From Azospirillum thermophilum (lineage in GTDB: Bacteria > Pseudomonadota > Alphaproteobacteria > Azospirillales > Azospirillaceae): a DNA stretch of 64,000 bases. Of the stretch, positions 16,952 through 24,595 are shown in pieces (positions within the stretch are counted from its first letter, which is position 1; each line of letters opens with the position of its first letter). A program made the position numbers and the translations under genes. The stretch spans positions 186,001-250,000 of the forward strand of contig NZ_CP029357.1 of NCBI RefSeq assembly GCF_003130795.1. Reading direction: 5' to 3'. Below the pieces are notes generated by a model. It made no database searches. It worked only from the letters and a program-made list of their open reading frames with translations, and was not told the DNA's origin.

Positions 16952-17887
16952 TCATTCCGCCGCCAGCGACGGCCTGCGGCGCGACGTGGCGAGCAGCGAG
17001 GCGATGGCGCAGCAGGTCAGGCGCGCCCGCATCGTGTCGGCGCGGCTGGCGAGGATCACCGGCACCTCGGCGCCCAGCACGATGCCGGACTCCAGATCCA
17101 GCGCCGGCAGGTCCGGACCGGCCTCCCTCTCGACCACCTCGGTCATCAGATCCTCGGCGTCGGGGCTTCCCTGCATGATGGCCTCGACCTTGCCGACCCG
17201 GGCCAGCGTGACGGCGGTTTCGGCCGCCGAGTGATCGTGGTCGACGCCGATCAGGTGGTAGGGGCGGAGGTCGAGCTGACAGAGGGCGGCCACCGAGCAG
17301 ATCGTCGCGGCCGGGCCGATCAGCACCGGGTCGATCAGCCCGGCCTCGGCCGCCGCGACGGCGGTCTGCAGCGTGTCCTCGTCGCAGGGATGGACGATCG
17401 CGGTGCGCAGCGGCGGCAGGCCGGCGCATCCCGCCAGCAGGGCGGCATGCCGGTCGTAGCGGTGCGCCTGCATCTGCGCCGCCGGGCGGGTCCCGCCGAT
17501 GGGGGCGATGACCTCGGCGGTGCCGCTGGCGACGATCTCGTCGTCCTGGTTGGTGCAGGTGCAGTCGAAGGCGACCGCGGTCCCGTCCGCCCGCTTCCCG
17601 GTGACCGTGACGGTCGCGGTGACGGCCTCGCCCAGCCGCACCGGCCGTTCGACCCGCAGGCGCTGGTCCTGCTGCAGCGCCCCGGCGCCGGGCAGAAGGC
17701 CTTCCAGCACGCCGGAGACCATCCAGCCGATCCACAGGGCGGATCCGCCGGCCGGTTCGAAATGGCTGTCGGCGTCATCGGAGAGGATGGTGCACAGCTC
17801 GGCATCCATGGCGGTGAACCGGCTCGTCAGGCTGGCCGTCTGGCCGATGCGCAGGGCGGAGACCTGTTCGATTTGGGTGGAATGCAT
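16952..17887 (-). CDS. MaoC-like hydratase / phosphate acetyl(butyryl)transferase fusion with internal deletion
   Basis: A 311-residue protein whose relatives (bifunctional enoyl-CoA hydratase/phosphate acetyltransferase) are about 470 residues by memory. Residues about 1-140 are a MaoC-like hot-dog domain (FTAMDAELCTILSDDADSHF, CTNQDDEIVASGTAEVI). A phosphotransacetylase domain then begins normally (LRTAIVHPCDEDTLQTAV, DPVLIGPAATI, VEAIMQGSPDAEDLMTEVV). It jumps in frame, just after VEREAG, to the extreme C-terminal motif GIVLGAEVPVILASRADTMR. The missing 120 or more residues hold the core of the active site, so the transferase is probably dead. ATG 17887 was chosen because homology starts there; an upstream ATG at 17950 adds 21 residues. 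No acetate kinase gene is adjacent. Confidence 0.75.
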   Translation of the reverse strand: MHSTQIEQVSALRIGQTASLTSRFTAMDAELCTILSDDADSHFEPAGGSALWIGWMVSGVLEGLLPGAGALQQDQRLRVERPVRLGEAVTATVTVTGKRADGTAVAFDCTCTNQDDEIVASGTAEVIAPIGGTRPAAQMQAHRYDRHAALLAGCAGLPPLRTAIVHPCDEDTLQTAVAAAEAGLIDPVLIGPAATICSVAALCQLDLRPYHLIGVDHDHSAAETAVTLARVGKVEAIMQGSPDAEDLMTEVVEREAGPDLPALDLESGIVLGAEVPVILASRADTMRARLTCCAIASLLATSRRRPSLAAE

Positions 17888-17946
17888 GACGCGATGCTCC
17901 GTATGGCGGGAGGTCGGAGTCCCCGACCGCCCCATTGGGCTGATCG

Positions 17947-17979
17947 GCATGACCTCTCACGCAAACCGGGAGGTCATGC
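17947..17979 (-). other. 10-base perfect stem-loop between sdaA and the MaoC/Pta gene
   Basis: GCATGACCTC (17947-17956) and GAGGTCATGC (17970-17979) form a perfect stem around a 13-base loop, 19 bases beyond the sdaA stop on the minus strand. A second small stem (GGTCGG 17912-17917 / CCGACC 17923-17928) follows. No T-run is present, so this may be a rho-independent-like pause, an mRNA 3' stabiliser or an operator. Confidence 0.45.
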
Positions 17980-17997
17980 GTCCTCGGATGACGGCCC

Positions 17998-19410
17998 TCA
18001 CGCGGCCCAGACGACGGTGTCGGCGTCCTGCGGGGCGGTCTGGGCAGCGGGGTTGGGGAGGACCTTGACGGCGAGGCCGCCGCAGGAGGTTTCGCGGTAC
18101 TTGGGGTCCATGTCCTTGCCGGTCTCGAACATCGTCTCGATCACCTTGTCGAGCGAGACCAGCGGCTCGCTGGTGCGGTGCAGCGCCATGCGCGTCGCGT
18201 TGATCGCCTTCATCGCGCCCATCGCGTTGCGCTCGATGCAGGGGATCTGCACCTGGCCGCCCACCGGGTCGCAGGTCAGGCCCAGATTGTGCTCCATCGC
18301 CACCTCGGCGGCGACGCAGACCTGCTCGGGGCTGCCGCCCATCAGGTCGGCCAGGCCGCCCGCCGCCATCGAGCAGGCGACCCCGACCTCGCCCTGGCAG
18401 CCGACCTCGGCGCCGGAGATCGAGGCGTTGGTCTTGTACAGCGCCCCGATCGCGGCCGAGGCGAGGAAGAAGCGCATGCAGGCCTCCTCGTCCACCGGCT
18501 TGATGAAGTGGTGGTAGTAGGCCAGCACCGCCGGCACGATGCCGCAGGCCCCGTTGGTCGGCGCCGTCACCACCCGGCCGCCCGAGGCGTTCTCCTCGCT
18601 CACCGCGAAGGCGAACATGTTCACCCAGTCCACCACGTTCATCGGGTCGCGCGACAGCGCCTCCGACGAGGCGAGCTGGCGGCGCAGCAGGGCCGCGCGC
18701 CGCGGCACCCGCAGCGGCCCGGGCAGCACGCCCTCGGTCGCCATGCCGCGCTCCATGCAGGCGCGCATCGTCTGCCAGATGCGGCTGAAATAGTCGCGGA
18801 TCTCCTGGCGGCCGTGCAGCCGCAGCTCGTTCTCCAGCACCAGCCCGGAGAAGGACAGGCCGGTGGCCCGGCAATGGGCCAGCAGCTCGGCCGCCGTGGC
18901 GTAGGGATAGGGCAGCTCGGCCGCCTGCGGCGCCGGCCGGCCGAAAGTCTCCTCGTCGACGATGAAGCCGCCGCCGATCGAATAGTAGGTCTTGGCCAGC
19001 AGCTCCTCCTCGCCGTCGAAGGCGCGGATGGTCAGGCCGTTCTCGTGGCGGGGCAGGTTGGAGCGGTGGAAGGTGATGGCGGTGGCGGGGAAGTCGACCG
19101 GCCGGCCCTGCGGCCCGAGCGGCAGGCGGCGGCTGGCCCGCACCTGCTGGAGGAAGCCGGGGATGGCGTCGATGTCCACCGTGTCGGGCAGGTTGCCGGC
19201 CAGCCCGAGGATCAGCGCCACGTCGGTGTGGTGGCCCTTGCCGGTGAGGGCGAGCGAGCCGTAGACGTCGACCGCCACCCGGCCGGTGCGCTCGAGCCGG
19301 CCGGAGGCCGCCAGATCGTCGACGAACTGCCGGGCGGCCTTCATCGGCCCGACGGTGTGGGAGCTGGAGGGGCCGATGCCGATCTTGTAGAGGTCGAACA
19401 TGCTGATCAT
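17998..19410 (-). CDS. sdaA: L-serine ammonia-lyase (iron-sulfur, single chain)
   Basis: A 470-residue L-serine deaminase converting L-serine to pyruvate and ammonia. The N-terminal half carries FDLYKIGIGPSSSHTVGPMKAA, the family's hallmark. The C-terminal catalytic half holds the cluster cysteines in GLTCDPVGGQVQIPCIERN and SCGGLAVKVLP, plus APTNGACGIVPAVL. Full length relative to E. coli SdaA/SdaB. GGAAGGA precedes ATG 19410. It lies 72 bases downstream of the serine permease gene, so uptake and deamination are one operon. Its product, pyruvate, is the signal sensed by the divergently encoded BtsS. Confidence 0.96.
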   Translation of the reverse strand: MISMFDLYKIGIGPSSSHTVGPMKAARQFVDDLAASGRLERTGRVAVDVYGSLALTGKGHHTDVALILGLAGNLPDTVDIDAIPGFLQQVRASRRLPLGPQGRPVDFPATAITFHRSNLPRHENGLTIRAFDGEEELLAKTYYSIGGGFIVDEETFGRPAPQAAELPYPYATAAELLAHCRATGLSFSGLVLENELRLHGRQEIRDYFSRIWQTMRACMERGMATEGVLPGPLRVPRRAALLRRQLASSEALSRDPMNVVDWVNMFAFAVSEENASGGRVVTAPTNGACGIVPAVLAYYHHFIKPVDEEACMRFFLASAAIGALYKTNASISGAEVGCQGEVGVACSMAAGGLADLMGGSPEQVCVAAEVAMEHNLGLTCDPVGGQVQIPCIERNAMGAMKAINATRMALHRTSEPLVSLDKVIETMFETGKDMDPKYRETSCGGLAVKVLPNPAAQTAPQDADTVVWAA

Positions 19411-19482
19411 GGCGGAGGTCCTTCCTGTGTCGGCCTGGGCCGCCTTCCCCGGTGGGGGAGAGGCGGCGGCCGGTCCGGCGGT

Positions 19483-20757
19483 TCAGAGGCTGAGCAGGGA
19501 GTAGAGGATGGCGGAGATGGCGACCGAACCGATGAAGAGGACCACGACGTTGCCCGGCTGGCCGGCATATTTGCGCATCGCGGGGACCTTGCGGATGGCG
19601 TACATCGGCATGATGAAGAGCAGGGAGGCGATGATCGGGCCGCACAGGGATTCGATCATGCCGAGGATGCTGGGGTTGAGGGTGGCGGCGATCCAGACGG
19701 CGGCGACCATGAACAGGGCGCTGAAGCGGTTGATCGCCTTGAGGTCGACGGCCTTGCCCTGGCCGCGCAGATGCTGGGAGATCAGGCCGTTGAGGCCTTC
19801 GCGGGCGCCGAGATAGTGGCCGAAGAAGGACTTGGTGATGGCGACGAAGGCGACGGCCGGGGTGAGGTAGGCCATCAGGGGGTTGTCGAACTTGTTGCCG
19901 AGGTAGGAGAGGATGGAGATGTTCTGCGCCTTGGCGTTGGCGAGGTCCTGGGGGGTGAGGCTGAAGACGCAGCTGAAGACGAAGAACATGACGACCAGGA
20001 CCATCATGACGGCGGCGTACTTCTCGATCTGGTCGGACTTGGCCTCGGCCTCGTCGCGGTACTGGTGCTGCTGGGCGACGACGAAGCGGGAGATGGCGGG
20101 GGAGTGGTTGAAGGAGAAGACCAGGGCGGGGATGCTCAGCCACAGGGTGAGGCTGAAGGTGCCGACGCTGGGGGTCTCGTTGAGGATGGCGCCGTTCCAG
20201 TCGGGGGCGAGGTAGAGGGCGATGCCGATGAGGACGAGGACGAAGGGATAGACCAGCCAGCTCATGACGCGCACGACCATCTGCTCGCCGAGCTTGATGA
20301 CGGCCATCAGGCCGAGGATGAGGCCGAGGGAGAGCAGGATGCGCGGGGGCGGCACCATGCCGAGCTGGTGGACCATGAAGCTCTGGACGGTGTTGGTGAG
20401 GCCGACGCCGTAGATGAGCAGGATGGGCAGGATGGTGAAGAAGTAGAGCAGGGTGATGAGCTTGCCGGCGGTGGCGCCGAAATGCTCCTCGACGACCTCG
20501 GTGATGTCGCTGCCGGGCTTGGAGGAGGAGAGGATGAAGCGGCACAGGCCGCGGTGGGCGAGGTAGGTCATGGGGAAGGCGATGGCCGCCATGGTGGCGA
20601 GCGGCCAGAAGCCGCCGAGGCCGGCGTTGATCGGCAGGAACAGGGTTCCCGCGCCGATGGCGGTGCCGAACAGCCCGAGCATCCACATCGTGTCGTGCTT
20701 GGACCAGGGCAGGGTCGGGTTGCCCAGCCTTGTGGTTTCGGTTGAGATACTGACCAT
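19483..20757 (-). CDS. sdaC: Serine/proton symporter (HAAAP family)
   Basis: A 424-residue inner-membrane transporter with about eleven hydrophobic segments, closely matching E. coli SdaC as I remember it: [83 protein letters not shown]. It imports L-serine (and perhaps threonine) with protons. ATG 20757 was chosen over a much longer upstream reading frame because AGGAGG sits at the right distance and homology begins there. First gene of sdaC-sdaA. A tandem box resembling the BtsR target lies about 140-165 bases upstream. Confidence 0.95.
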
Positions 20758-21139
20758 GGCGATGCCTCCTGCGAGCCCGTGACGCCGGATGGTTCGTCCA
20801 TCCCGGTGCGGCTGCGGTTGATTGACTGGAGGCAGCCTAGCAAGGACAAAGGCCCGCTTCCGGGCCCAACGCCGGAACGGTGGAATAGCAGAATGAGCGG
20901 TGGAATGCGCAAATGAGCGGAGACGCCAAGGGCGGCAGCCGGGGCCGGGGAGAAAGCGCCGTGCGCCGAACGTCGCAACCCGGTCCGGGCCCATGCTTCT
21001 CTCTGGCGTTTTGGCCGGCGATGTTCCACTAGATGCGCCTCGCGCCACCACCTGTCACCACTCACCGCCGGGGGGCAGACCTTCCGGAAGCGCGGGCCCG
21101 AAGCGCAGGCCCGACGCGCGGGTATGAGGAGCCGTTCCG
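20758..21139. promoter_or_regulatory. Divergent control region sdaC / btsS
   Basis: A 382-base intergenic region separating sdaC (minus) and btsS (plus). It holds the ribosome site of sdaC, the tandem repeat at 20881-20921 and a short GC-rich inverted repeat (GGCCCG...CGGGCC, 20851-20867) downstream of that repeat on the sdaC side. I see no open reading frame of its own worth calling. No convincing -35/-10 pair was found for btsS. Confidence 0.6.
20881..20921 (-). promoter_or_regulatory. Tandem BtsR-like binding site upstream of sdaC
   Basis: Two 20-base units stand head to tail: TGGAATAGCAGAATGAGCGG (20881-20900) and TGGAATGCGCAAATGAGCGG (20901-20920). Read on the minus strand, toward sdaC, they present TCCGCTCA (20921-20914) then ACCGCTCA (20901-20894), one start every 20 bases. 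The known E. coli BtsR (YehT) target, from memory, is ACC(G/A)CT(C/T)A repeated with a 13-base spacer. Here the spacer is 12. Direct repeats two helical turns apart are typical of LytTR-domain regulators. A weaker third copy (GGAACGG) precedes them. Confidence 0.72.
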
Positions 21140-22834
21140 ATGTCCGTCGATCTCCTGGGCCTCTCGCTGTTCCTGCTGCAGCAGATGTGCGTCTATCTGG
21201 TGGTGGCCTATCTGCTGAGCCGGACGAAGATCTTCATCCCGCTCACCCACGTCACCATCCGGCCGCCGCACAAGCTGACCTGCTACGTCATCTTCTCGCT
21301 GTTCTGCATCATGGGAACCATCCTCGGCATGCCGGTGGTCCACGCCATCGCCAACACGCCGGCGATCGGCGCCACGCTCGGCGGGCTTCTCGGCGGGCCG
21401 CTGGTCGGGCTGGCGGTCGGGGTGACCGGCGGTCTGCACCGCTATTCGCTGGGCGGCGCCTTCGCGCTCGCCGCCGGCATCGACATCGTGGTGCAGGGGC
21501 TGCTGGGCGGCCTCGTCCACCGCCATCTGGTCCGGCAGGGCAGGATCCGCACCCTGTTCGACCCCTACAAGGCCGGCGCCCTCACCTTCATCGGCGTGGT
21601 CCTGGAACTGCTGATCGACCTCGCGGTGGCGAAGCCCTTCGACCAGACGCTGGAGATCGTCCGGCTGATCGCCATCCCGGAGCTGATCGCCAACTCGCTG
21701 GGGGCGGCGATGTTCATGGGCATCCTGCTCGACCGCCGCGCGCTGATCGAGCGGCAGTCCAGCATCTTCTCGGCCAAGGCGCTCGCCATCGCGGCGCGGG
21801 CCGACGGCGTGCTGCGCCGCGGCTTCAACCAGGAGAACAGCCAGACCGTCGCCCGCATCATCTACGAGGAGACGGGAGTCGGCGCGGTCGCCATCACCGA
21901 CCGCGAGAAGATCCTGGCCTTCATCGGCATCGGCGACGACCACCATCTCCCCGGCACGCCGATCTCCTCGGCCAGCACGCTGGAGGCCATCACCTACAAC
22001 CAGGTCATCTATGCCGACGGCAACGAGGTGGCCTACCAGTGCTCGATCAGCCCGACCTGCCGGCTCGGGTCCTCGCTGGTCATCCCGCTGGTCGGCGAGG
22101 ACAACCACGTCATCGGCACGATCAAGCTCTACGAGCCGAAGAGCAAGCTGTTCTCCACCATCAACCGCACGCTGGGCGAGGGCATCGCCAAGCTGCTGTC
22201 CAGCCAGATCCTGGCCGGCCGCTACGAGCAGCAGAAGGCCCTGCTCGCCCAGGCGGAGATCAAGCTGCTGCACGCCCAGGTCAACCCGCACTTCCTGTTC
22301 AACGCGCTGAACACCATCGCGGCGGTCACCTGCGACGACCCGGAGAAGGCGCGCGACCTGATCGGCGACCTCTCGACCTTCTTCCGCATGAACCTGAAGC
22401 GGCCGAGCGAGGAGGCCTCGCTGTCGGAGGAGATCGAGCATGTGAACGCCTACCTGCAGATCGAGCTCGCCCGCTTCTCCGACCAGCTCACGGTCGAGGT
22501 CGACATCCCGGACTCGCTCGGCTGGGTGCGGCTGCCGACCTTCACGCTCCAGCCTGTCGTGGAAAATTCCATCAAGCACGGCACGTCCCAGTTGCTGCGT
22601 CCCGGCCGCGTTTCCATAAAGGCCCGTCAGGACGGGGAAGATCTCGTTCTCGATGTGGAAGACAACGCCGGGCTTTACGAGCCGAAACCGGCGGGCAAGG
22701 GCCTCGGCATGAGCCTTGTCGACCGCCGCATCAAGAACTGTTTCGGCGCGTCCTATGGTGTTACCGTCACGTCCGAGCGCGACGTCTTCACCCGCGTCTC
22801 GATCCGGGTCCCTCTGGAGGCCGCTTCCAAATGA
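21140..22834 (+). CDS. btsS: Pyruvate-sensing histidine kinase BtsS (LytS family)
   Basis: A 564-residue sensor kinase, nearly the length of E. coli BtsS (YehU). The N-terminal 5TM-LYT membrane domain (about 1-205) includes LLQQMCVYLVVAYLLSRT, CIMGTILGMPV and GVTGGLHRYSLGG. A GAF domain follows (GAVAITDREKILAFIGIGDD, SLVIPLVGED). The His_kinase domain has the phospho-acceptor in HAQVNPHFLFNALNTI and an HATPase with VVENSIKHG and GKGLGMSLVDRR. In E. coli BtsS responds to extracellular pyruvate. ATGA overlap with btsR shows coupling. It is divergent from sdaC-sdaA, whose reaction yields pyruvate. Confidence 0.94.
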   Translation: MSVDLLGLSLFLLQQMCVYLVVAYLLSRTKIFIPLTHVTIRPPHKLTCYVIFSLFCIMGTILGMPVVHAIANTPAIGATLGGLLGGPLVGLAVGVTGGLHRYSLGGAFALAAGIDIVVQGLLGGLVHRHLVRQGRIRTLFDPYKAGALTFIGVVLELLIDLAVAKPFDQTLEIVRLIAIPELIANSLGAAMFMGILLDRRALIERQSSIFSAKALAIAARADGVLRRGFNQENSQTVARIIYEETGVGAVAITDREKILAFIGIGDDHHLPGTPISSASTLEAITYNQVIYADGNEVAYQCSISPTCRLGSSLVIPLVGEDNHVIGTIKLYEPKSKLFSTINRTLGEGIAKLLSSQILAGRYEQQKALLAQAEIKLLHAQVNPHFLFNALNTIAAVTCDDPEKARDLIGDLSTFFRMNLKRPSEEASLSEEIEHVNAYLQIELARFSDQLTVEVDIPDSLGWVRLPTFTLQPVVENSIKHGTSQLLRPGRVSIKARQDGEDLVLDVEDNAGLYEPKPAGKGLGMSLVDRRIKNCFGASYGVTVTSERDVFTRVSIRVPLEAASK

Positions 22835-23550
22835 TCAACGTCCTCATCGTCGATGACGAGCCGCTGGCTCGCAAGGAGCTTCGCCGTGTCCTCTCCAAGG
22901 CCGAGGACATCGCCATCATCGGGGAATGCAGCAACGCCATCGACGCGGTGGGCATGATCAACCGGGAGAAGCCGGACGTCGTCTTCCTCGACATCCAGAT
23001 GCCGCGGGTCAGCGGGATCGAGATGCTGAGCATGCTCGACCACGAGAAGATGCCCCACATCGTCTTCCTGACCGCCTACGACGAATACGCGGTGCAGGCC
23101 TTCGAACAGCACGCCTTCGACTATCTGCTGAAACCGGTCAACCAGGCCCGCCTCGACAAGACGCTGCAGCGCCTGCGCCGCGACCGCGAGCCGCAGAAGA
23201 TCGGCCTGCTGCCCGGCGCCAACCAGCTCCGCCAGATCCCCTGCTTCGGCCAGCACCATGTCCAGCTCCTGCGGATGGAGGAGGTGGAGTATGTCGCCTC
23301 GGGCATCAGCGGGGTCTATGTCGTCGCCACCGACGGCAGCGAGAAGCCGACCGCCCTGCCGCTGCACATCCTGCAGGACCGCACGCCGCTGCTGCGCTGC
23401 CACCGGCAGTATCTCGTCAACGTCGACTATATCGAGAAGATCAACTTCCTGGAAAACGGCCTCGCCGAGATCCACACCAGGCGCGGCCACGTCATCCCGG
23501 TCAGCCGCCGTTTCTTCCCCCAGATCAAGGAGCGGCTCGGCATCCTGTGA
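22831..23550 (+). CDS. btsR: LytTR-family response regulator BtsR
   Basis: A 239-residue response regulator. The receiver domain (about 1-118) has the acidic pair DDE, phospho-acceptor D54 in VVFLDIQMPR, T in FLTAYDEYA and K in YLLKPV. The C-terminal LytTR DNA-binding domain (about 140-238) has the family signature LLRCHRQYLVNVDYI and VPVSRR. Sequence follows E. coli BtsR (YehT) throughout. It is coupled to btsS by a four-base ATGA overlap. Its predicted target is the tandem ACCGCTCA-like repeat in front of sdaC. Confidence 0.94.
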   Translation: MINVLIVDDEPLARKELRRVLSKAEDIAIIGECSNAIDAVGMINREKPDVVFLDIQMPRVSGIEMLSMLDHEKMPHIVFLTAYDEYAVQAFEQHAFDYLLKPVNQARLDKTLQRLRRDREPQKIGLLPGANQLRQIPCFGQHHVQLLRMEEVEYVASGISGVYVVATDGSEKPTALPLHILQDRTPLLRCHRQYLVNVDYIEKINFLENGLAEIHTRRGHVIPVSRRFFPQIKERLGIL

Positions 23551-23582: not shown

Positions 23583-23740
23583 GGCATGCGGCCGGCGGCT
23601 CCTTGCCCTGCAAAGGCCGGGCTACCCGCGCGCACCTTCCCCTGCTAGGCTTCGCGTCCGACGTGCAGGACGGGGGCGGGAATGTCGATCGCAGGGAAAC
23701 GGGGATCCATGTTCGCGGGCCGCGACGCGGCGAGGCGGCG

Positions 23741-24595
23741 ATGAGGGGGCCCGACCGTCACGCGATCCGCCGCCACGCGATCCGCCGCCGCGCCCTGTTC
23801 GGCCTGCCGCTGGCCGTCGCCGCCCTGCACCCGGCGGTCGGCCCCGCCCTGGCGGCGGGAAAGCCGCGCAGCCACGCCGCGACCTACGGCTATGCCCCCT
23901 TCGCGACGGAGCATCTGATCCCCGGCGCCGACCTCGACCTCTCCACGGTCGATCCGGACCACCCCGCCGCCCGGGTGATCGCCCTGACCATCGACGACGG
24001 CCCCGACCCGCAGGACCTGCGCATCCTGGAGGTGCTGCGCCGCCACGGCGCCGGGGCGACCTTCTTCTTCATCGGGCGCAAGCTGGACCGGCAGCATGAT
24101 CTGACCACCCAGGTCGCCGCGTCGGGCCACGAGATCGGCAGCCATAGCTGGGAGCATCCGATGATGACGGACCTGCCGCCGGCCGGCCAGCTCCGCAGCC
24201 TGGACGCCACCAATGCCGCGTTCGGCCGGATCGGCCTCCGCCCGGCGTGGTTCCGTCCGCCCTATGGCGACTTCGACGCGGCGGTCGAGGCGGCGGCCCG
24301 CGCCCGCGGCCTGCAGACCGTGCTGTGGACCGTCGACAGCCAGGACTGGAAGGGGACCGACGCCGCGACCATCGGCCGCCGGGTGGTCGACCGTCTCCAT
24401 CCCGGCGCGGTCGTGCTGATGCACAGCACCAAACCCGCCTCGCTGCAGGCCCTGCCGGACATCCTGGCGGCCGGGGCCAGCCGGGGCTACCGCTTCGTCA
24501 CCCTGTCGGCGTGGCGGGAGGCGATGCGGCAGGCGGTCACCGTCCCGATGGCGCTCCATCTCGGGGAGCCCGGTCGCCCAGCAGCTCCGCGATGA
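23741..24595 (+). CDS. Polysaccharide deacetylase (NodB domain), exported
   Basis: A 284-residue carbohydrate esterase family 4 protein. The N-terminus has RRRALFGLPLAVAALHPAVG, a twin-arginine-like signal that would be cut near ALA at about residue 38. The NodB domain contains motif 1 TIDDGPD (D85, D86), metal-binding SHSWEHPM (H135, H139), RPPYGDFD, WTVDSQDWK and VVLMHST. It would remove N-acetyl groups from a cell-wall or extracellular glycan. ATG 23741 follows GAGG. Its last 59 bases overlap the end of the convergent gene at 24537. Confidence 0.87.
   Translation: MRGPDRHAIRRHAIRRRALFGLPLAVAALHPAVGPALAAGKPRSHAATYGYAPFATEHLIPGADLDLSTVDPDHPAARVIALTIDDGPDPQDLRILEVLRRHGAGATFFFIGRKLDRQHDLTTQVAASGHEIGSHSWEHPMMTDLPPAGQLRSLDATNAAFGRIGLRPAWFRPPYGDFDAAVEAAARARGLQTVLWTVDSQDWKGTDAATIGRRVVDRLHPGAVVLMHSTKPASLQALPDILAAGASRGYRFVTLSAWREAMRQAVTVPMALHLGEPGRPAAPR

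Follow-up and report, generated by a model that had tools for sequence, protein, structure and literature searches.

A divergent sdaCA-btsSR locus of Azospirillum with a triple BtsR-type box array upstream of sdaC

Described BtsSR systems and the sdaCA-linked locus

In E. coli the LytS-type kinase BtsS and the LytTR response regulator BtsR (YehU/YehT) have btsT as their target, a gene unlinked to btsSR, and pyruvate sensing by BtsS requires Arg72, Arg99, Cys110 and Ser113 (PMC10653868). A paralog of this pair was studied in a stretch of 64,000 nucleotides (nt) from Azospirillum thermophilum (contig NZ_CP029357.1; G000:C6:186001-250000 in our set), which as a whole is called the window below. 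Here btsS and btsR lie beside the serine genes sdaC and sdaA, and three direct boxes of BtsR type stand upstream of sdaC. Comparison across genomes supports well that the link of btsSR and the array to sdaCA is real and conserved. The four genes are:

17998..19410, minus strand: sdaA, L-serine ammonia-lyase, product pyruvate (TIGR00720, 712 bits, cut-off 345; PF03313 and PF03315)
19483..20757, minus strand: sdaC, serine/threonine transporter (TIGR00814, 547 bits, cut-off 526)
21140..22834, plus strand: btsS paralog of the sdaCA-linked clade (PF07694, PF06580; residues; tree)
22831..23550, plus strand: btsR paralog of the sdaCA-linked clade, LytTR response regulator (NF008677, PF04397, Asp54, tree)

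Profile searches uphold the gene calls, and sdaC-sdaA and btsS-btsR are divergent neighbours, as an earlier note on this DNA had proposed. The window BtsS carries a 5TM-5TMR_LYT sensor (PF07694, 153 bits) and a His_kinase domain (PF06580, 88 bits); its GAF match lies below the Pfam cut-off. The window BtsR has the LytTR domain (PF04397) and passes the NCBIfam BtsR equivalog NF008677 with 364.9 bits against a cut-off of 246.

The locus resembles the E. coli system in the kinase and regulator families, the domain order, His382 and Asp54, Arg99, and direct boxes of the NCCRCTYA type placed 20-21 base pairs (bp) apart. It differs in that E. coli BtsS has R72, C110 and S113 and binds pyruvate. The array upstream of E. 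coli btsT reads GCCGCTCA N12 ACCGCTTA N13 ACCACTCA and is identical to the yjiY/YehT oligonucleotide (PMC4847170). The E. coli btsSR genes lie far from sdaCB, in agreement with the earlier statement that these genes are unlinked there, and no box pair at up to two mismatches was found on either strand of the 566 bp preceding sdaC in that species.

Two further E. coli arrangements are related. YpdA/YpdB (PyrS/PyrR), with its target yhjX, is likewise a LytS/LytTR pair with two direct repeats, but its motif (GGCATTTCAT) and target differ, a separation made by description only (PMC4847170). Serine breakdown is joined physiologically to BtsS, as serine deamination feeds the BtsS-YpdB network; there, however, the activator is the pyruvate made from serine, serine import is independent of BtsS-YpdB, and the sdaBC transcript dropped early after acid (PMC9765748). 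None of L-serine, D-serine and glycine competed with pyruvate for binding to BtsS (PMC5431176). Since E. coli BtsS sees serine only after its conversion to pyruvate, the wiring proposed below for the sdaCA-linked locus would differ.

In Azospirillum, two LytTR regulators were reported in strains 4B and B510 and one in each A. brasilense strain, and one lytSR pair was described beside an efflux pump (PMC4618731, in the portion considered here); by the present comparison, the latter is a pair of the second type found in this genus. This other Azospirillum BtsSR resembles the sdaCA-linked one in that its BtsS forms the sister clade, its boxes are triple and their distance to the -10 is similar. 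It differs in keeping all four pyruvate residues and in having its array before a CstA-family gene with 21/20 or 21/21 spacing. An account of gammaproteobacterial BtsS/BtsR mentions, in the portion considered, no sdaCA link (PMC5552118). No description of an sdaCA-btsSR module was found in the open-access literature searched, and print beyond open access may differ; the sdaCA-linked module is a variant of the BtsSR systems not previously described in that literature.

The triple array and the BtsR promoter design

Toward sdaC the array reads TCCGCTCA-N12-ACCGCTCA-N12-ACCGTTCC (20921-20874), three boxes in a 20-bp register followed by a -10-like hexamer:

20914..20921, minus strand: BtsR-type box 1, TCCGCTCA, at -164/-165 from the sdaC start in 10/10 Azospirillum genomes
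20894..20901, minus strand: BtsR-type box 2, ACCGCTCA, 20 bp from box 1
20874..20881, minus strand: BtsR-type box 3, ACCGTTCC, 20 bp from box 2
20834..20839, minus strand: -10-like hexamer TAGGCT, 42 nt from the start of box 3

The earlier note had claimed a tandem box, two copies 20 bases apart on the minus strand. Both copies are real and lie 20 bases apart as claimed, but "tandem" understated the array, as the third box, missed at that time, falls in the same register and makes it triple.

Fewer than three boxes carry little information by themselves. In the window the single box ACCRCTYA was found twice against 3.8 expected, and the two-box pattern with three mismatches five times against 7.3 expected, neither count being significant. 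Because these patterns stay at chance level, the third box and a comparison across genomes are needed. With up to three mismatches allowed, the three-box pattern has a single match in the window, with zero mismatches, against 0.04 expected. In 45 genomes of the genus, ten exact three-box matches are listed, all of them upstream of sdaC; they belong to nine genomes, the window's own contributing two copies, and in the tenth genome with sdaC (G041) the pattern carries one mismatch. Chance matches become common when three mismatches are allowed (at least one in 41 of 45 genomes). The pattern read backwards, used as a control over the 45 genomes, gave 25 matches, 14 of which fall in one genome.

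The array is held in every sdaC promoter compared. All 15, ten from Azospirillum and five from other genera, have three boxes in 20/20 register, and in all 15 a -10-like hexamer follows 41-42 nt after the start of box 3; 14 of the hexamers were counted by pattern and that of G027 (TAAGTT, missed by the pattern) by eye. A sigma-70 consensus scan gave no match, so the -10 call rests on this conserved position. Among the ten Azospirillum promoters, mean pairwise identity is 0.93 in the boxes, 0.83 in the spacers, 0.65 in the linker and 0.38 in the 60 nt upstream; the corresponding invariant columns number 19/24, 12/24, 4/34 and 1/60. The array is also retained where the gene order has changed (G029) or where btsSR lies about 11 kb away (G041). 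The boxes of Rhodoplanes, Pleomorphomonas and Paludibacterium are degenerate (NCCGYTCR) and are missed by a strict NCCRCTYA scan. In A. lipoferum 4B (L238:4782-4870), five boxes stand in register upstream of sdaC, with spacings of 21, 20, 20 and 20.

Two other elements near the array were taken as chance. A stem-loop at 20850-20867, between box 3 and the -10, is not evident by eye in the other nine linkers, and a single ACCACTCA at 21057-21064 (plus strand) near btsS is absent from the other eight intergenic regions compared. An Rfam search gave a sub-threshold match only (15.8 bits, gathering threshold 53).

The assignment of the boxes to BtsR can be approached through the promoters of CstA-family genes. 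In a phylum-wide sample, BtsR was present at E 1e-60 or better in 27 of 398 genomes; besides the window's own, 26 such loci were fetched and, with one from the same family (G065), make 27 loci outside the genus. Twelve of the 27 show a strict box pair ahead of a CstA-family gene, the CstA identity being confirmed by Pfam in 12/12, and sdaCA is found in the fetched stretch of none of the 27. Azospirillum has two CstA types. In 32 of 38 genomes the second btsR has the type of 612 amino acids no more than 13 kb away, the other six being without it in that range; in the window's own genome the distance is 15 kb. Upstream of this type, a relaxed three-box array without mismatch was found in 17/17 Azospirillum genomes checked, about 120 nt before the start (the G035 array, listed as 20/21, fits 21/21 too). 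For the other CstA type, no upstream match in 23/23 has fewer than three mismatches, and none of 2100 shuffled sequences reaches one mismatch. A TAnnnT motif follows the start of the last box by 41-43 nt in 17 of 18 CstA-type promoters (12 outside the genus, five inside, and E. coli), the exception being E. coli btsT, which has no TAnnnT at 36-68 nt.

The box of the window is thus of the same design as the arrays upstream of the CstA-type gene in 17/17 Azospirillum promoters, and its naming as BtsR-type holds. In array geometry and -10 position, the sdaC promoter copies the BtsR promoter design, with 20/20 replacing 21/20 or 21/21. The window array stands before sdaC; arrays of the CstA type accompany the other paralog. 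Box pairs at L045:838, L046:12877 and L051:1679 lie near the other btsSR and face no nearby gene start. On a Burkholderia savannae plasmid (L241), btsSR neighbours pta, ackA and a formate/nitrite channel gene, with a sensor that has all four pyruvate residues; no triple array at up to one mismatch was found in L241, which possibly represents a third kind of target.

Distribution of the module

Within the genus, SdaC is present in 10 of 45 genomes, with the array upstream of sdaC in all ten, and a full BtsR at least 77% identical to that of the window is present in exactly the same ten. The second BtsR type (63-68% identity to the window's) occurs in 38 of the 45, including nine of the ten. SdaC was found in none of the 37 further genomes of the order (82 searched, the 45 genus genomes included). 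The layout is divergent in eight of the ten, as in the named strains A. lipoferum 4B (plasmid AZO_p2) and Azospirillum sp. B510 (pAB510b); G029 has the co-directional order sdaC-sdaA-btsS-btsR, and in G041 the distant btsSR is turned.

The module extends beyond Azospirillum. A co-directional sdaC-sdaA-btsS-btsR is found in a Telmatospirillum metagenome-assembled genome, Rhodoplanes serenus, Pleomorphomonas oryzae and two Paludibacterium. When GTDB species genomes were scanned for SdaC, 79 loci were kept from the best 80 of 411, eight of them with BtsS inside the fetched flank. Among these loci, SdaC at 71% identity or more marks the module in 9/9, the ninth being the contig of G041 and five being genomes outside the genus set. 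In the flanks of the 70 loci with less similar SdaC no BtsS was found, some of these flanks ending at contig ends.

The earlier suggestion that btsSR is evolutionarily tied to sdaCA is borne out by the presence in the same ten of 45 genomes, by the same four genes in four further genera, and by the array in 15/15. Loss of the repeat in relatives keeping the gene order had been set beforehand as the refuting test; it was looked for, and the repeat was not lost. The same note had pictured the system as rewired to the serine-to-pyruvate route. A plain rewiring from btsT is too simple: nine of the ten genomes hold both paralogs, and it is the second, specialised one that the sdaC array accompanies.

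The cassette may instead have travelled together by horizontal transfer, with no regulatory coupling and an incidental repeat. Its patchy distribution (BtsS above threshold in 1/385 sampled genomes of the class, the window's own) and the location of its copies on large plasmids agree with transfer. Nevertheless, boxes far more conserved than the adjacent DNA, an array that survives changes in gene order, and a geometry shared with CstA promoters make transfer without coupling highly improbable. It is also conceivable that the other BtsR paralog, and not the adjacent one, acts on the sdaC array, since near-identical boxes occur at the promoters of both, the CstA type in 21/20 or 21/21 and the sdaC type in 20/20 register. 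This cross-talk seems quite unlikely, for the array persists in G027, whose sole BtsR is of the sdaCA clade and which gave no CstA match, and the 29 genus genomes with the other BtsR alone have no sdaC.

Several neighbouring features and remnants were also seen. In G022, a truncated BtsR of the sdaCA clade (L096:10101-10433, residues 129-239) is present; the fetched 19 kb gave no match to btsS or sdaCA, the genome as a whole gave none to SdaC, and the fragment looks like a remnant of joint loss. The window's own genome holds a second array and sdaCA copy at G000:C6:424067-427016 (L098:5068-8017), 2.95 kb with 99.8% identity to window 17992-20942, about 217 kb from the first; the sdaC reading frame of this copy is broken into two pieces. 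Directly 3′ of sdaA, an open reading frame at 16952-17950 (minus strand) has a sub-cut-off match to the first part of bifunctional enoyl-CoA hydratase/phosphate acetyltransferase, and a frame 51% similar to it follows sdaA in L039 and L041; it resembles a conserved shortened fusion. A polysaccharide deacetylase gene at about 23690-24595 (plus strand) adjoins btsR. A similar gene lies upstream of the other btsS in six of 11 loci (L045, L046, L047, L049, L050 and L051), and no such gene was found next to the second btsSR of the window's own genome (L043).

The sensor pocket and a candidate ligand

The trees and alignments comprised 49 rows for BtsS and 54 for BtsR. Two BtsS sequences were left out (L034 with unresolved bases, L107 with 313 amino acids), and L105, L106 and L117 gave no BtsS match. 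The trees are from quick searches, and the outgroup named for rooting does not form one side of a branch. The sdaCA-linked BtsS (14) and BtsR (15) each form a single clade with a support of 100 in the Shimodaira-Hasegawa-like approximate likelihood ratio test. In the BtsS tree this clade is sister to the other Azospirillum clade; in the BtsR tree the other Azospirillum clade is unsupported.

The residues that serve pyruvate sensing separate the two groups. In E. coli numbering, all 14 sdaCA-linked BtsS have Pro72, Ala110 and either Asp113 (11) or Gly113 (3), the window BtsS carrying P, R, A and D at positions 72, 99, 110 and 113. R72, C110 and S113 are found in 35/35 other BtsS rows, 11 of which are Azospirillum paralogs, while R99 and the phospho-acceptor H382 are present in all 49. 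E117Q and Q154E are also changed in 14/14 of the clade. Among 180 columns conserved in at least 95% of the other BtsS rows, 11 differ throughout the sdaCA-linked clade, ten of them in the transmembrane sensor; three of the four pyruvate-binding residues are among the 11 (P = 6.7e-4; 0.008 within the sensor domain alone). The other BtsS paralog keeps the pyruvate residues in every readable row; nine of its 21 loci stop short of position 72, and of the positions compared only 117 and 154 are readable in L024, the readable part agreeing. BtsR Asp54 is present in 54/54 rows, and the sdaCA-clade BtsR differs throughout at three of 75 conserved sites, E204K among them. A PDB search with BtsS matched the kinase part only (6swj). 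As the replacements are in turn conserved in two classes, the alteration speaks for a new function rather than decay.

The earlier note had taken the serine operon to be controlled by its own product, pyruvate. BtsS might indeed still sense pyruvate, given its overall similarity, the BtsR equivalog match, the retention of Arg99, His382 and Asp54, and the fact that serine acts on E. coli BtsS once deaminated to pyruvate (PMC5431176, PMC9765748). However, three of the four pyruvate residues are replaced in 14/14 sdaCA-linked BtsS, and the other paralog, present in nine of ten genomes, retains all four in every readable row. Pyruvate would have to act through a pocket in which single changes abolish the response in E. 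coli: replacement of Arg72 was not possible, and the variants without btsT induction include C110A and S113G (PMC10653868). Control by pyruvate is unlikely on this evidence, and pyruvate as the ligand of the sdaCA-linked BtsS is probably wrong.

What the altered pocket would bind can be considered from the E. coli model, in which Arg99 contacts the carboxylate and Arg72 the carbonyl oxygen (PMC10653868). Loss of the carbonyl-oxygen contact together with the gain of acids in a carboxylate pocket suits an amino acid, and the partnership with sdaCA makes L-serine the simplest candidate. Another small carboxylate (lactate, or a different amino acid, for example alanine, threonine or D-serine) could be sensed instead, sdaCA being one output among several. 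The pocket is clearly altered and its acidic residue at 113 is not universal; moreover, LytS kinases with changed Cys/Ser positions have been suggested by others to bind different ligands, such as lactate (PMC10653868). The linkage to sdaCA across two classes, with matching presence in the genus, argues against such a ligand, as does the lack of an exact three-box sdaC-type array elsewhere among the matches listed for the 45 genomes, and we regard it as rather unlikely.

Four things are seen directly in the sequences: the linkage, an array of fixed promoter geometry, a clade of its own and an altered pocket. Together they lead us to favour, as the probable reading, a serine regulon complete in itself, with sdaCA driven through BtsR by a BtsS of altered specificity, most likely an L-serine sensor. 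In this regulon sdaC-sdaA and btsS-btsR would form one serine-use module. The BtsS paralog would be a membrane sensor kinase whose pocket has moved away from pyruvate, with extracellular L-serine as its likeliest ligand, and when ligand-bound would phosphorylate its partner BtsR. BtsR would then bind the three direct boxes 20 bp apart, the last of which starts 42 nt before the sdaC -10 element, and would activate serine import and deamination through more SdaC and SdaA. We infer the binding, the phosphotransfer, the ligand, and activation as opposed to repression.

Some observations weigh against the serine regulon. The ligand derives entirely from the target genes and the pocket chemistry, and we know of no serine-binding LytS protein for comparison. 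Position 113 is Gly in 3/14, hence Asp113 is not the sole contact for an amino group. The pocket changes are shared from one stem and count as one event, not 14; likewise, the co-occurrence count ignores the relatedness of the genomes. In 15 of the 27 BtsR loci outside the genus, no strict box pair was found in the fetched stretch. The pocket positions were defined by mutagenesis in E. coli and by a model of BtsS that may, according to its authors, contain errors (PMC10653868).

More broadly, though only tentatively, a clade of LytS-type seven-helix kinases in alpha- and betaproteobacteria, whose regulators are named BtsR, may be L-serine sensors that arose after duplication. The pocket would have lost the Arg for the carbonyl oxygen of pyruvate and gained acids (D113 in most, E154 in all), the regulator would have kept its DNA code, and the array would have been placed before sdaC, so that ligand and target changed together. 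The database name BtsR carries pyruvate sensing onto a system that is probably not pyruvate-sensing, for instance in A. lipoferum 4B. The locus offers a concrete case for a point left open in PMC10653868, whether changed Cys/Ser positions mean new ligands. As a natural pair of paralogs, present in the same cell in nine of ten genomes and differing in pocket and target, it makes the specificity code of LytS-type sensors directly testable.

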